Of a stretch of 59,036 nucleotides of DNA, positions 33,189 through 38,140 are shown in pieces. Source of the stretch: Methyloceanibacter sp. (GTDB taxonomy: Bacteria > Pseudomonadota > Alphaproteobacteria > Rhizobiales > Methyloligellaceae); the NCBI GenBank assembly GCA_014380485.1, contig JACMJU010000041.1:1-59036 (forward strand), in the 5' to 3' direction. The notes below the pieces were generated by a model. It did no database searches, was not told where the DNA came from, and saw only the letters and a list, made by a program, of their open reading frames with translations. Position numbers and translations under genes: made by a program. How positions within the stretch are numbered: the first letter of the stretch is position 1; each line of letters opens with the position of its first letter.

Positions 33189-33656
33189 ATGCTGCTAGGT
33201 GATTTCATCTCCCCCGACTCTGTCGTGCCGCTGCTCAGAGCGAAGACCAAGAAGCAGCTGCTTCAGGATCTTTCCGTCCGCGCCGCCCGTCTCACCGGGC
33301 TTTCCGAGCGCGACATCTTTGATGTCTTGTGGCAGCGTGAACGGCTCGGCTCGACCGGGCAGGGCCAGGGCATCGCCATTCCCCACGGCAAGCTTCGGGG
33401 GCTGAAGCGCATCGCCGGCCTCTTCGCCCGTCTGGCCGAGCCGATCGACTTCGATGCGGTCGACGGCCAGAAGGTCGATATCGTGTTCCTTCTGCTCGCA
33501 CCGGAGGGCGCCGGCGCCGATCATCTCAAGGCGCTCGCCCGCATCTCGCGGCTGTTGCGCGAGGGGAGTGCGGTAGACAAGCTCCGCGCCTCGAAGGATG
33601 CCGCCGCGCTTTACGCGGTCTTGACCGAGGGCGAAACCTCCTCCCACGCCGCTTAG
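33189..33656 (+). CDS. ptsN: Nitrogen phosphotransferase EIIA-Ntr
   Basis: 155 residues. The PTS EIIA type-2 fold is complete: LLGDFISPDSVVPLLRAKTK, RERLGSTGQGQGIAIPHGKL with phosphorylation site H66, and VDIVFLLLAPEGAGADHLK. PtsN is the end of the PTS-Ntr phosphorelay that senses nitrogen and regulates potassium transport and other targets in alphaproteobacteria. It lies 47 bp after hpf. Its stop codon overlaps that of the convergent serine hydrolase gene. Confidence 0.96.
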   Translation: MLLGDFISPDSVVPLLRAKTKKQLLQDLSVRAARLTGLSERDIFDVLWQRERLGSTGQGQGIAIPHGKLRGLKRIAGLFARLAEPIDFDAVDGQKVDIVFLLLAPEGAGADHLKALARISRLLREGSAVDKLRASKDAAALYAVLTEGETSSHAA

Positions 33657-34816
33657 CGCGGAGCGAGTTCGGCGATCAGTTCGTTGGTCGCCTTCGCCAT
33701 CGCATCGAAACCCGCCACACTGAACGCGTTGATCGAGACGAACACGCCGATACCGCGGGAGGGCGCAAACGCCACATAGCTGAACTGGCCTTGCAGCCCG
33801 CCGGTCTTATTGAAGATAAGCGGCATGTTGCCGTCCGCGTTCTGAACGACCCAGCCAAGGCCCATCGCGTCCATGCCGCCCGTTTCATCCAAGCCGAACA
33901 CGGGGCTAAGCCCGTCGCGCGGCAGATAGATTGCATGGTCGAGAAGGCGCATCTCGGCGTCCTTCGCGGCGAAGCGATCGAGATGCCAGCCGAGCCAGCG
34001 CAAGATGTCGTTGGCGGTGGAGTAGAGCCCGCCGGCCCCCTGGATAATCGGCGCCGTCTCGAGGAAAGGCAGCTGCGAGCCGTCGAAATTGTGGCCCCGC
34101 ATGGTGCGGACCTTGTCGGCATCGGTCAGATCGAACCGCGTATCCTTGAGCCCCGCGGGGTCCAACACGCGCTCCTTGAGCAGGTCGGCATAAGGCTTGC
34201 CGGCCGCGTTCGCCAAGGCTTGCGCGAGGAGGTCGAAGCCAAAATTGGAATAGAGAATGCCGGTGCCCGGCGGAAACAGGAGGGCGTCGGGCGTCAGCGA
34301 GGCGATGTAGTCCGCCTTGCTGCCCATCAGGGTCGGGCTGTCCCCCGCCGCCTTGACCTCGGCCTCGCGCGGCAGACCCGAAGCGTGGGTGACGAGGTCG
34401 ATCAGTCTGATCGATTTGCCGTCGCGCTCGGGGATCTTCACGTCCCAGCCGAGCCGGTCCTGAAGGGTGTCGGCGAAACCGACTTTGCCGTCGGCTACCA
34501 TCGAGGCGAGCGCAGCACCACAAAATACCTTTGTGATCGAGCCGATGCGCATCAGCGTGTCGCCGTCGGGCTCCTTGCCGCTGCCGTCGGCGATCTCGCC
34601 GAAACCGCGCACGACCGTCTCGCCGTTGTGAATTACGCCGATGATGAGACCCGGAGGCTTGGCGCCGAGATAGATGAAGGTTCCGGCAAAATCGACCGCC
34701 TCAGCGAGGAGCTTGTCCTCGGCGCGTGCGCTTGGAGCGCCAAGCATCGAGATGCCAAGCATCGCAATAAAGGCGAGCGCCAGCCCTGTACGCATGGTCA
34801 AACCGGCAATCGTCAT
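33653..34816 (-). CDS. AmpH/class C-type exported serine hydrolase
   Basis: 387 residues with a Sec signal peptide (cleavage near ARAED). The beta-lactamase-fold catalytic motifs are all present: S93-I-T-K96, Y189-S-N191 and NKTGGLQG (KTG box) near 345. The whole resembles AmpH, a periplasmic D-Ala-D-Ala carboxypeptidase/endopeptidase, rather than a beta-lactamase. GAGG eight bases before the ATG supports the start. It follows the Tat-exported LysA-like gene by 30 bp, and both may act on peptidoglycan peptides or D-amino acids. The substrate is an inference from the fold. Confidence 0.88.
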   Translation of the reverse strand: MTIAGLTMRTGLALAFIAMLGISMLGAPSARAEDKLLAEAVDFAGTFIYLGAKPPGLIIGVIHNGETVVRGFGEIADGSGKEPDGDTLMRIGSITKVFCGAALASMVADGKVGFADTLQDRLGWDVKIPERDGKSIRLIDLVTHASGLPREAEVKAAGDSPTLMGSKADYIASLTPDALLFPPGTGILYSNFGFDLLAQALANAAGKPYADLLKERVLDPAGLKDTRFDLTDADKVRTMRGHNFDGSQLPFLETAPIIQGAGGLYSTANDILRWLGWHLDRFAAKDAEMRLLDHAIYLPRDGLSPVFGLDETGGMDAMGLGWVVQNADGNMPLIFNKTGGLQGQFSYVAFAPSRGIGVFVSINAFSVAGFDAMAKATNELIAELAPR

Positions 34817-34846: not shown

Positions 34847-36424
34847 CTACGAGAAAATCTCTTCGTATGTGTCAGCGTGCTTGAGATAGGTCCAATCGCC
34901 GTTGGCTTCGAGCAGAAGGCGGGCGGGACGGGGGAAAGAATTGGCGTTGGAGGCGAAGAAGGTGGGATTATAGGCGCCGGTCGAGGAGATCAGAAGCACG
35001 TCGCCGCGTATCACCTTGCGTGGAAAGGCGACCTTGAGACGCGACAGCATATCGCCGGAAAAGCAGAGATTGCCGGCGATGAAAGTCTCGAACGGCCGCG
35101 GATCGCTCCGCTTCAGCCCGGTGGCAAGCGCCCAGTGGCGCGCCGGCAGCGCCACGATCGGCTCGCAATAGTTCACGACGCCGAGGTCGAGGCTGATCAG
35201 ATCGTGCACGTCTGCGATTTTCTTTTCGAAGGCGACGCGCGCCAAGGTGATGCCGCTGTCGCTGACGATCGAGCGCCCCGGCTCGATCATCAAGGCGGGG
35301 CTTCCCGCCGCGGCAAGCGCATCGGTGGCCTTCATCGCGCGATCGTTCACGGTGATGTCGTTGGTGAGGATCGCCTCCAGCATCGTCTCCTTGGGATATC
35401 GCGCGGTGAACAGCTCTCCTTCCCAAGCCTTGGTCGGCTCGCCGTCGGGGCCCATGGAGAACCCGCCGAGCGCATTTCCCCAGAGATAGACCTTGCTCGG
35501 GTCGCCCGCTTTTGCCGCAAGGAAGCCGTCGCGAATGCGTGCCAGGATGTCGTCCCACTCATCTTGCGTGACATAGGATACGGGAAAGCCGCCGCCGATA
35601 TTGACGGCCTCGAACGCATGCCCCGCCGCCTGAAGCAAGCCGCCGAGCTCGAGCAGCTTGCCCAAGACCAACTGATAGGCGCCAAGGTCGGTGATCTGGC
35701 TGCCGATATGGGTGTGGAACCCGAGCACCTTGACAGGCATCTCACCGATGCGCGGAAGGAGCGGGGGGATGTCCGAAATGAGGATGCCGAACTTGCTCCA
35801 CTCGCCTGCGGTGAAGATTGCCGGAGACGTGACGTTGTCGAGGGGGAACCCGGAGACACGCAGCACCACGCGAGGCTGCCGGTCATGGTTTGCTGCAAGC
35901 TCGGCAATGCGATCAAGCTCGGCGATGCTGTCGGCGATGATCAGCATGTCCTTATCGATGGCGAGATTGAGAAGCCCGTCGTCCTTGGCGTTCCCGTTCA
36001 CGTCGAGCTTGTCCGGCGTAACGCCCGCCTCCAGCGCGCAACGGGTCTCGTAAGGGGAGGCGACATCGATCCCGACACCGGCTTCCGCCGCCAAGCGAAA
36101 CACGGCGGGATGGGTCGATGCCTTCCCGGCATAGCGAACCTCGCCTTTGGGATAAAGCCTTTCGAAAACGTCTTTATACGCGGCGAGGTTGGCTCTGATG
36201 TCCGGCGCATAGGAGACGTGGAGAGGCAGGCCGAATTCCTCGATCCACCAAGGGAGCGGCCTTCCGCCCAAGACCAGCTCATCGCCCGACGCATCGATGA
36301 AGGCGGTGACGTCGGGAGAGCCGGGAGCCGCAGCGCCCGCTTGACCGGCGCGGGAGGCGAGCGCCGCCATGGCGAGCGTGACTGTGGTCTGGCGCAAAAA
36401 ATCCCTTCGCGAATACCCTCGCAT
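34847..36424 (-). CDS. Tat-exported LysA-like PLP-dependent decarboxylase homolog
   Basis: 525 residues from the ATG at 36422-36424 (AGGAG eight bases upstream). The N-terminus is a twin-arginine signal (SRRDFLRQTTVTLAMAALAS). The body is the fold-type III ornithine/diaminopimelate decarboxylase family: RYAGKAS with the PLP lysine K101, GFHTHIGSQ (235-243), VNIGGGFPV (274-282), EPGRSIV (381-387), and the second-subunit catalytic cysteine in GNLCFSGD (C454). Between about 311 and 370 there is an insertion not found in standard LysA. PLP enzymes of this kind are normally cytoplasmic; Tat export of a folded, cofactor-loaded enzyme would explain the signal. No lysine-pathway gene is nearby. Decarboxylase, racemase or a binding role are all possible. 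Confidence 0.88.
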   Translation of the reverse strand: MRGYSRRDFLRQTTVTLAMAALASRAGQAGAAAPGSPDVTAFIDASGDELVLGGRPLPWWIEEFGLPLHVSYAPDIRANLAAYKDVFERLYPKGEVRYAGKASTHPAVFRLAAEAGVGIDVASPYETRCALEAGVTPDKLDVNGNAKDDGLLNLAIDKDMLIIADSIAELDRIAELAANHDRQPRVVLRVSGFPLDNVTSPAIFTAGEWSKFGILISDIPPLLPRIGEMPVKVLGFHTHIGSQITDLGAYQLVLGKLLELGGLLQAAGHAFEAVNIGGGFPVSYVTQDEWDDILARIRDGFLAAKAGDPSKVYLWGNALGGFSMGPDGEPTKAWEGELFTARYPKETMLEAILTNDITVNDRAMKATDALAAAGSPALMIEPGRSIVSDSGITLARVAFEKKIADVHDLISLDLGVVNYCEPIVALPARHWALATGLKRSDPRPFETFIAGNLCFSGDMLSRLKVAFPRKVIRGDVLLISSTGAYNPTFFASNANSFPRPARLLLEANGDWTYLKHADTYEEIFS

Positions 36425-36475
36425 CCCAGCAACTCCTACGCAAATGACGCATCGCGAGCGCAGGGAGCCTATCAC

Positions 36476-36553
36476 GGCGACCGATGAGAGGAAATGTCAG
36501 CGCACGCTCACCGGCACCGGATTGTTCTCGATGGCGTTGGCATTGGCTGCGGC
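36476..36553. repeat. Duplicated DUF1150 tail, copy 1
   Basis: About 75 bp matching 37845-37917 with few mismatches, in the same orientation. It begins near GGCGACCGATGAGAGGAAA and covers the end of DUF1150. Weaker similarity continues through the following ribosome site and start codon (AACTCCTxACGCAAA on the plus strand). Confidence 0.85.
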
Positions 36554-36575
36554 TCGAGCCCGGCCGGTGAGCAAT
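36497..36575 (-). pseudogene. 3' remnant of a DUF1150 gene
   Basis: The minus strand reads LLLTGRARAAANANAIENNP followed by VPVSVR and a stop. It aligns with the C-terminus of the intact DUF1150 protein (LALTDSRNAAIANAIENN, then LVPVSVH) encoded at 37865-38140. Upstream the frame is closed by a stop within a few codons and the similarity ends, so only about 25 codons survive. It sits between the frameshifted serine hydrolase and the LysA-like gene and marks a duplication or insertion junction. Confidence 0.8.
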
Positions 36576-36586
36576 AAGTCTGTTTT

Positions 36587-37773
36587 CTATGGGTTCGAGG
36601 GCGGCGCCGGCCAGGAGTGGTCGGGGCTGATGATCTTCACGATCTCTGTGACCAAATTCCAAACTCCTATCAGGTCGACGCTTGAATTGACGATGACGAC
36701 CATCGTGGTGCGCTCGGGGGGAAGGTAATAGGCGTAGGTCTGGTAACCCGAGATATTTCCGTTGTGGCCTATCCAGCCGTTCTGGTTCTCGACGCCAAGC
36801 CCCACAGCGAACCCGTACCCTCTGACGGTGCAAGCATAAAGGACTGCTCGCGCTCGCGCTGGGTGGCCGGCGAGAGCAACTTGCCGGTGGCCAGGTCACG
36901 CGCCCAGATATGCAGGTCGTCGACCGTCGAAACCATGTGCACCGCGGCCCATCCCCACGAGGGGTCCCAGTCCGTCGTGTCCACCACCTTGCCTTCGGGC
37001 GTTTTCAAGTAGCCGTGGGTGTGCGGTGACGGCAATGCAGCATCGGTGGGGAACAAGGTGTGCTCGAGTTTCGCGGGTCGCGTGAGGTGCTCTTCAATAT
37101 AGGTGTTCAGCGACTGGCCGGAGACCTTCTCGACCACCAGGCCGAGGAGCACGGTGTTGGTGTTGGAGTAGTCGAAATCGGTACCCGGCGGGAAGAGCGG
37201 CGGATGGCGGAAGGCGATTTCCAGCACTTCCTGGGGTGTCCAACGGCGATGCGGCTGGCTCGGGAGCATTGGGTTCGTCACATCCGAGTAGCTGAAAAGC
37301 CCGCTGCGCATGGCCGCCAATTGGCGGATTGTGATCTTGTCTCCGTTGGGGACACCGGGCACATATTTGCTGATCGGATCGTCGAGTCCGAGCTTTCCTT
37401 CATCCACCAATTGCAGAATGGCGGTGGTGGTGAAGCTCTTGGTCACGCTGCCGATGCGTGTATAGAGGTCGGTGGCCATGGGTTCGCCTGTGGCTGTGTC
37501 GCGTACCCCGAAGGCCCGGACATAGGGCGCCTCGCCATCCTTCCAGATACCGACGATGGCCCCCGGAACCGAGGCTTTCTCCATCTCCCTAGGAATCGTT
37601 TCGGTGAGCTTCACATCACGCGCAGCTGGTTCGGACGCCTTTGCATTGAGACCGTCCGGCACGGGCGGCGATTGTCCATCTGTGGCGACTATAGTGTCAG
37701 TCGCAAGTGCAGCCTGGCAGAGCAATCCGCTCAGGAAAACGCAAAGCATTGTTGCGTGCACCGTCCATCGCAT
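36587..37773 (-). pseudogene. Frameshifted exported serine hydrolase (class C beta-lactamase/DD-peptidase fold)
   Basis: The first frame (36769-37773) encodes a signal peptide (MRWTVHATMLCVFLSGLLCQ), S109-V-T-K112, and FDYSNTN, and then ends at TAG after RTRTAG. The missing end is found one frame away: YGFAVGLGVENQNGWIGHNG, then ISGYQTYAYYLPPERTTMVV, running to a stop at 36587. The break lies near 36810-36835 and equals one missing base. The intact part lacks the third catalytic motif (H-x-G, here GHNG), so the truncated product is probably inactive. It may be a real mutation or a sequencing error; no long homopolymer is present. It is flanked by duplicated DUF1150 sequence. Confidence 0.85.
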
Positions 37774-37844
37774 CGCCGCAACTCCTGACGCAAAATGAAC
37801 TTCGCAACCCTGACGACAGCCAGGGGCGCCGGGAGCTTACCACT

Positions 37845-37917
37845 GCGACCGATGAGAGGAAACGTCAGTGCACGCTCACCGGCACGAGATTGTTCTCGAT
37901 GGCGTTGGCAATGGCCG
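37845..37917. repeat. Duplicated DUF1150 tail, copy 2
   Basis: The counterpart of 36476-36553 in the same orientation, at the end of the intact DUF1150 gene. The pair forms direct repeats on both sides of the frameshifted hydrolase. Confidence 0.85.
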
Positions 37918-38140
37918 CGTTGCGGCTGTCGGTGAGCGCGAGCGGCGTACCGTCGGCGCCGAGCAGGGCATAGAGGTCGATGCCCTTCGGCGCCTCGGAC
38001 AGCGCCGGAAAAAGGCGCTCGGCAGCGTCGGGATCGAGCTGCTTGATATAGGCGACCTCTCCGTCGCCAAGCTGCGCGAATTCGCTCCGGCTCATGGGTG
38101 CGCGCGTCTGGCGATCTTCTTCTTTTTCGAACTCATTCAT
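37865..38140 (-). CDS. DUF1150 family protein
   Basis: 91 residues from the ATG at 38138-38140, preceded by GGAGGAG. The central block GDGEVAYIKQLDPDAAERLF, then IDLYALLGADGTPLALTDSR and VPVSVH at the very end is the DUF1150 pattern. The family is small, cytoplasmic, restricted to alphaproteobacteria and usually encoded next to a small heat-shock protein, as here (61 bp downstream of hsp20). Function unknown; coregulation with Hsp20 is likely. Confidence 0.88.
   Translation of the reverse strand: MNEFEKEEDRQTRAPMSRSEFAQLGDGEVAYIKQLDPDAAERLFPALSEAPKGIDLYALLGADGTPLALTDSRNAAIANAIENNLVPVSVH

Follow-up and report, generated by a model that had tools for sequence, protein, structure and literature searches.

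The gene described here raises the question whether a pyridoxal phosphate (PLP) enzyme with the fold of diaminopimelate (DAP) decarboxylases leaves the cytoplasm by the twin-arginine (Tat) route and, if it does, which substrate it would meet in the periplasm. It lies within the window, a 59,036-nucleotide stretch of contig JACMJU010000041.1 from a Methyloceanibacter draft genome (146 contigs, about 86% complete), and forms a complete frame on the minus strand, with its ATG at 36424 and its stop codon at 34849-34847. The plus strand over the same stretch is also open, for 898 codons; the minus frame has been taken as the gene because of an AGGAG located 8 bases 5' of its ATG (by eye), its codon-position GC of 0.637/0.460/0.785, and homology over most of its length. 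The overall GC of 0.627 and the GC3 of 0.785 are near the values of the neighbouring genes. The gene and the features of its product on which the argument turns are listed here.

34847-36424, minus strand: predicted Tat-signal-bearing fold-type III PLP decarboxylase, 525 amino acids (motifs and family models)
36433-36437, minus strand: AGGAG, ribosome-binding-site-like, before the ATG of the PLP gene (by eye)
36329-36424, minus strand: twin-arginine signal peptide covering roughly the first 32 residues, with SRRDFLRQ, a hydrophobic stretch and AGAAA (TIGR01409, hydropathy and ORF background; cleavage site by eye)
36122-36124, minus strand: PLP lysine K101 (motif position and alignment)
35405-35557, minus strand: bulk of the insertion (approximately residues 290-340) separating the GGG loop from EPGR (alignment)
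35162-35164, minus strand: E421, where DAP decarboxylases have the Arg for the distal carboxylate (alignment; PMC8277567)
35060-35065, minus strand: C454, equivalent to the catalytic cysteine that the partner subunit supplies in relatives, and F455, which replaces the distal-amine Glu (alignment; PMC8277567 and PMC7857480)

Regarding the family, the PLP-binding barrel model of Pfam (PF02784) matches the protein with an E-value of 3e-35 and 122.2 bits against a cut-off of 23.4, and the model of the C-terminal sheet domain (PF00278) stays just below its cut-off of 23 (22.8 bits, E 1.2e-4). The closest PDB matches are DAP decarboxylases, with 2p3e at the top (E 1.5e-38), and the best named NCBIfam model is lysA (TIGR01048), whose 230.4 bits remain below the cut-off of 297.9. 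The first-pass annotation had described a fold-type III decarboxylase, and all of the motifs it named have been found where it placed them, namely K101, HTHIGSQ at 237, GGGFP at 277 with the phosphate loop at 277-279, EPGR at 381-384, and C454. A cysteine matching the last of these is described as conserved in all decarboxylases of the alanine-racemase fold (PMC7857480).

The residues that recognize the substrate tell a different story from those that hold the cofactor. In the Thermotoga DAP decarboxylase, the distal carboxylate is bound by two arginines, Arg249 and Arg285, and the distal amine by Glu315, which the other subunit contributes; changes of Glu315 have created activity on other D-amino acids, with a hydrophobic residue at this position being required for activity on D-Phe and D-norleucine (PMC8277567). 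Arg249 appears to correspond to the Arg of EPGR, which would be retained here as R384. The position of Arg285 is occupied by R in all seven LysA rows of our alignment, by E421 in the query, and by E in all five rows of Y4yA; at the position of Glu315, E is found in six LysA rows and D in the seventh, F455 in the query, F in six and Y in three of the nine archaeal relatives, and L in 5/5 Y4yA rows. As E421 and F455 stand where DAP decarboxylases have Arg and Glu, DAP specificity is argued against. The earlier description of an intact active site consequently holds for the PLP chemistry, whose motifs are kept, but not for DAP recognition, whose distal residues are changed, and the term LysA-like is appropriate for fold and PLP chemistry but not for specificity. 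With LysA the protein shares the fold family, the PLP lysine, HIGSQ, GGG, EPGR, the Cys loop and the GAY motif; it differs in the distal pair, in its Tat signal, in 60-66 more residues before EPGR, and in an identity of only 24-30% to the seven LysA rows. The genome carries a separate LysA on contig 104 and a paralogue resembling ornithine decarboxylase (ODC) on contig 68. Judged from sequence, the enzyme is not LysA, and a gene for which lysA is the best named model may thus encode something else.

The N-terminus of the protein reads MRGYSRRDFLRQ, in which SRRDFLRQ starts at residue 5, and continues with a hydrophobic stretch and AGAAA. The NCBI Tat model TIGR01409, run on residues 1-51, has given 19.9 bits and passes its cut-off of 16.7, which, together with the hydrophobic stretch, bears out the twin-arginine signal proposed earlier. 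Among the 194 ORFs of at least 100 amino acids in the window, a comparable motif within the first 45 residues has been found in two, the PLP enzyme and one other, the latter without a hydrophobic stretch after the motif (by eye). TatC is encoded in the genome. The further proposal that the enzyme is exported and works in the periplasm is backed by the Tat model, by TatC and, as set out below, by peptidase neighbours and by the oxidase gene that a sister genome carries in this slot, all of which make it a reasonable prediction.

Such a location had been called unusual, and so it is, but precedents exist. PvdN and PtaA are likewise PLP enzymes that take the Tat route, exported folded and with the cofactor bound; the transport of PvdN requires bound PLP, and ptaA stands in for pvdN in one gene cluster (PMC6206403). 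Alr of P. putida, a broad-spectrum racemase, has similarly been reported as active in periplasmic fractions (PMC6034422). Our literature search, conducted on titles and the openings of abstracts with subscription journals mostly outside its coverage, has returned no exported decarboxylase of this fold. PvdN and PtaA are fold-type I enzymes and act on a siderophore substrate. The broad-spectrum racemases Alr and BsrV belong to the same PLP fold class as the decarboxylase, differ from it in the C-terminal domain and the active-site pair, and are exported through Sec; BsrV reportedly has periplasmic activity as well. What is unusual here is the combination, since fold and PLP chemistry are known and the export route is known for other PLP enzymes.

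The insertion of about 60 residues noted at first pass has been confirmed by the alignment, in which the span from GGG to EPGR measures 104 residues in the query, 85-92 in the archaeal rows, 75-76 in four Y4yA rows, and 38-44 in seven LysA rows; the fifth Y4yA row (Y4yA_Brad) has been left out of this count, as its printed value of 37 stems from a second GGG-like match. W290, W315, G321, W334 and E337 are kept in all ten rows comprising the query and nine archaeal proteins. AlphaFold models built on two-row alignments have been of low confidence (mean pLDDT 48.2 for the window protein and 49.7 with the ANME-2 relative as first row), and pocket and insertion consequently remain unseen in them. 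A Foldseek search with the window-protein model has ranked a D-ornithine/D-lysine decarboxylase first; this ranking is given no weight, as the query TM-scores lie near 0.4 and the model itself has a mean pLDDT of 48.

Close relatives are scarce. None have been found in 60 other related genomes (E <= 1e-40), 396 other genomes of the order (E <= 1e-50), 384 genomes of the class or 397 of the phylum (both at 1e-45), or, by profile search at 1e-65, in 29 other genomes of the family, where these samples overlap and the thresholds have been chosen so that LysA is skipped. Across 84,980 species, each represented by one genome, a pattern scan, which demands exact short peptides and so misses distant members, has led to a single confirmed relative, in the ANME-2 cluster archaeon HR1, with 36% identity over residues 62-522 (36-37% in other comparisons). 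A profile of the subfamily has then matched 5/149 genomes near HR1 and 8/294 of its phylum, HR1 being counted in both. Scans of viral contigs have confirmed no relatives; the HIGSQI pattern on the DNA level occurred there in 23 stretches, none of which held a relative by blastp at 1e-5. The query is 32-36% identical to the nine full-length archaeal rows, a set without three fragmentary matches (G1293, G1332, G1471), and 24-27% identical to the five Y4yA rows. The nearest relatives among the genomes sampled therefore appear to be archaeal, namely ANME-2 HR1 and its kin.

A first tree has grouped the query with Y4yA and the archaeal rows against LysA and ODC (98/100); a second one, from which ODC_own and Y4yA_Mavi had been dropped for their long branches, has placed it outside the LysA clade (99/99) without settling the order among query, Y4yA and archaeal rows, and both have come with a long-branch warning. 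In the second tree the query is not nested among the archaeal rows. This placement and the identity of only 32-36% lend no support to a recent horizontal acquisition from the archaea found. With the archaeal subfamily the query shares the insertion and its five kept residues, W(S/T)KFG, AGNLC(F/Y)xGD and FPR, while the specificity helix differs and the twin-arginine pattern is absent from the first 45 residues in 9/9 archaeal rows. Y4yA and SbnH-type enzymes resemble the query in a specificity-helix Glu, in a hydrophobic residue after the Cys and, for Y4yA, in a shorter insertion at the same place, but 4/5 Y4yA rows have HxSGY in place of HIGSQ, and 5/5 lack the twin-arginine pattern in their first 45 residues. 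No neighbour is constant across the archaeal relatives and a few genes recur in two or three of them, under a crude picking of ORFs that can miss genes. In ANME-2 HR1 (L005:16-5761), the signal-less relative stands beside ORFs resembling histidine ammonia-lyase, urocanate hydratase and an enzyme of the arginase family (by eye).

The surroundings of the gene would fit a substrate derived from peptidoglycan. Four elements, all on the minus strand, define its slot.

33653-34816, minus strand: AmpH-type D,D-carboxypeptidase/endopeptidase, 30 bp downstream of the PLP gene (NF007943, 344.6 bits, cut-off 266)
36424-36572, minus strand: leader in front of the PLP gene, a diverged duplicate of the stretch at 37773-37937, which holds the 3' tail of DUF1150 and a leader (alignment)
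36587-37773, minus strand: serine hydrolase resembling R61 and alkaline D-peptidase, with a broken frame, upstream of the PLP gene (PDB matches)
37865-38140, minus strand: DUF1150 gene, upstream border of the slot (PF06620)

Among PDB entries, the upstream hydrolase most resembles the R61 D,D-peptidase and the alkaline D-peptidase. Its ORF (36769-37773) stops at 36769, and homologous-looking sequence continues in another frame up to a stop at 36587, a break that may reflect either a pseudogene or a sequencing error. By eye, this protein and the AmpH-type neighbour both have a signal-like leader at the N-terminus. The PLP gene and the upstream hydrolase gene are each preceded by a segment some 150 bp long that comprises the DUF1150 3' tail, the leader and AGGAG, and its two copies have diverged (129 identical positions; alignment score 175, against 49 for the best of 200 shuffles). 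The leader of the PLP gene being such a diverged copy, the slot probably goes back to a duplication or insertion that is not recent. A chimera of the assembly is considered unlikely, as the flanking genes reach 89% identity with those of same-genus genomes, GC and GC3 are near those of the neighbours, and the leader copy has diverged.

Inspection of the ptsN locus in 16 other genomes of the genus has revealed AmpH in seven (in one of them at a contig end) and none in eight, one being not judgeable. Six of the 16 offer a complete interval from AmpH to DUF1150, which is empty in five and in the sixth (G009) holds a gene for a D-amino acid oxidase-like protein that matches PF01266 and, in the PDB, D-aspartate and D-amino acid oxidases. 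Its leader, TRRSILALGAAATVSA, carries a twin-arginine motif by eye (TRRSIL), and the Tat models have given no match on it. The oxidase in the sister genome's slot hints at a place used for periplasmic D-amino acid disposal. This swap could, however, be chance, as the PLP gene and the oxidase have each been seen there in one genome. Relatives of the oxidase (E <= 1e-40) occur in 7/249 genomes of the order, G009 included, and no AmpH has been detected in the neighbourhoods fetched for five of the other six (tblastn, about 5 to 7 kb), so that the link between oxidase and AmpH rests on one genome.

The explanation that we tentatively favour, while placing it just short of probable, is that of a Tat-exported periplasmic decarboxylase acting on D-configured centres that peptidoglycan D,D-peptidases set free. 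By analogy with PvdN and PtaA, the protein would fold and be loaded with PLP in the cytoplasm before Tat export, for which it would provide a test case. Acting on peptidoglycan, the neighbouring D,D-peptidases would liberate D-amino acids as well as the D-centre of meso-DAP; the PLP on K101 would form an aldimine with the D-configured amino acid centre, the alpha-carboxylate would leave as CO2, and C454 of the partner subunit would serve reprotonation. The distal pocket, formed by E421, F455 and perhaps the insertion near its mouth, would ignore the free L-end of DAP and accept a different or larger side chain. Export, dimer, decarboxylation, D-stereochemistry, the place of the insertion in the fold, and the peptidoglycan origin of the substrate are all inferred. 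The first-pass suggestion of an amino acid or peptidoglycan-derived substrate agrees with the gene context and stands as a predicted role. In favour are the family and PLP motifs, the Tat model with TatC, AmpH and the R61-like gene, the slot swap, the separate LysA and ODC, and the distal residues; against stand a slot swap seen in one genome, the broken frame of the upstream peptidase, PF00278 just below its cut-off, and the poor models. The archaeal relatives count against a peptidoglycan role, because they lack the signal and archaea should not use murein, so that the ancestral substrate of the subfamily was probably not peptidoglycan. A further point against is E421, which would suit an amine-bearing side chain better than a purely hydrophobic one. 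If exported and active, the enzyme would place an alanine-racemase-fold decarboxylase outside the cytoplasm and extend the D-amino acid chemistries of the periplasm by an irreversible decarboxylation.

A variant with a slim chance of being correct is that the enzyme decarboxylates the free D-centre of meso-DAP while the L-centre is still part of a stem peptide. AmpH cutting of a cross-link leaves the D-centre of the stem-peptide meso-DAP free, and decarboxylation following a cut of this type would turn DAP-type into lysine-type muropeptides in the periplasm. That the changed residues are those gripping DAP at its free L-end would thereby be explained, and the variant would need just the loss of free-L-end contacts that is seen here. 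Conjugated or carrier-bound molecules are the substrates of FigC, SbnH, AcsE, MccE and BtrK (PMC7857480), and since the fold has repeatedly been adapted in this way, the bound meso-DAP is a real possibility. A search by title and abstract has found no such reaction on stem peptides in the literature. It is a testable idea that the periplasm is where D-centres derived from the wall, possibly including DAP within muropeptides, undergo chemical rewriting.

These same tailoring enzymes support a fairly unlikely competitor, a periplasmic decarboxylase whose substrate is an amino acid in conjugated form (siderophore-like or peptide-bound) and that would work like SbnH, FigC or MccE and be exported like PvdN, itself a Tat-exported PLP enzyme of siderophore tailoring (PMC6206403). 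The specificity-helix Glu is common to the query and 5/5 Y4yA rows, the residue after the Cys is hydrophobic in both (L in 5/5), and an IucA/IucC siderophore gene lies beside Y4yA in three of the four annotated stretches; yet no siderophore synthetase has been found among the neighbours and the subset of window proteins scanned, the identity to Y4yA is only 24-27%, and the two nearest neighbours resemble D,D-peptidases. The D-amino acid context would suit a periplasmic racemase built on the decarboxylase chassis, akin to the broad-spectrum racemases, and periplasmic members of the alanine racemase family are known (PMC6034422). Against such a racemase, which we consider decidedly unlikely, the decarboxylase Cys loop is kept, the C-terminal part matches PF00278 (just below cut-off) and no racemase C-terminal domain, and Ala_racemase_N reaches only E 0.22.

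Two further explanations dispense with a periplasmic function of the kind that we favour. An ordinary DAP decarboxylase exported by chance would account for the best PDB matches (2p3e) and for lysA as best, if under-cut-off, model, but is highly improbable given the changed distal Arg/Glu pair, the genome's own LysA elsewhere, and the position outside the LysA clade (99/99); the distal residues and the unreached lysA cut-off have led to its rejection. That the protein is cytoplasmic, or its gene decaying, with a fortuitous N-terminus, is also decidedly unlikely, although the gene comes from a single draft genome, adjoins a frame-broken one, and has archaeal relatives without the extension: the Tat model is over its cut-off, the start site is good, the frame is open over its full length with neighbour-like GC and GC3, and the PLP motifs are kept.

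Regarding the genes of the sister genomes themselves, the AmpH gene of one (G001, L043:3724-4852) matches as two overlapping pieces in different frames and may hence be broken or misassembled there. Among the six other relatives of the oxidase-like protein, four match the twin-arginine pattern before the FAD motif, one does so by eye, and one does not. The oxidase-like protein (L040:2339-3502, minus strand) looks circularly permuted, as the part that is usually C-terminal (HNYGHGGCGITLSWG) precedes its GxGxxG FAD motif, and the same order of parts has been observed in 6/6 relatives (L064-L069).
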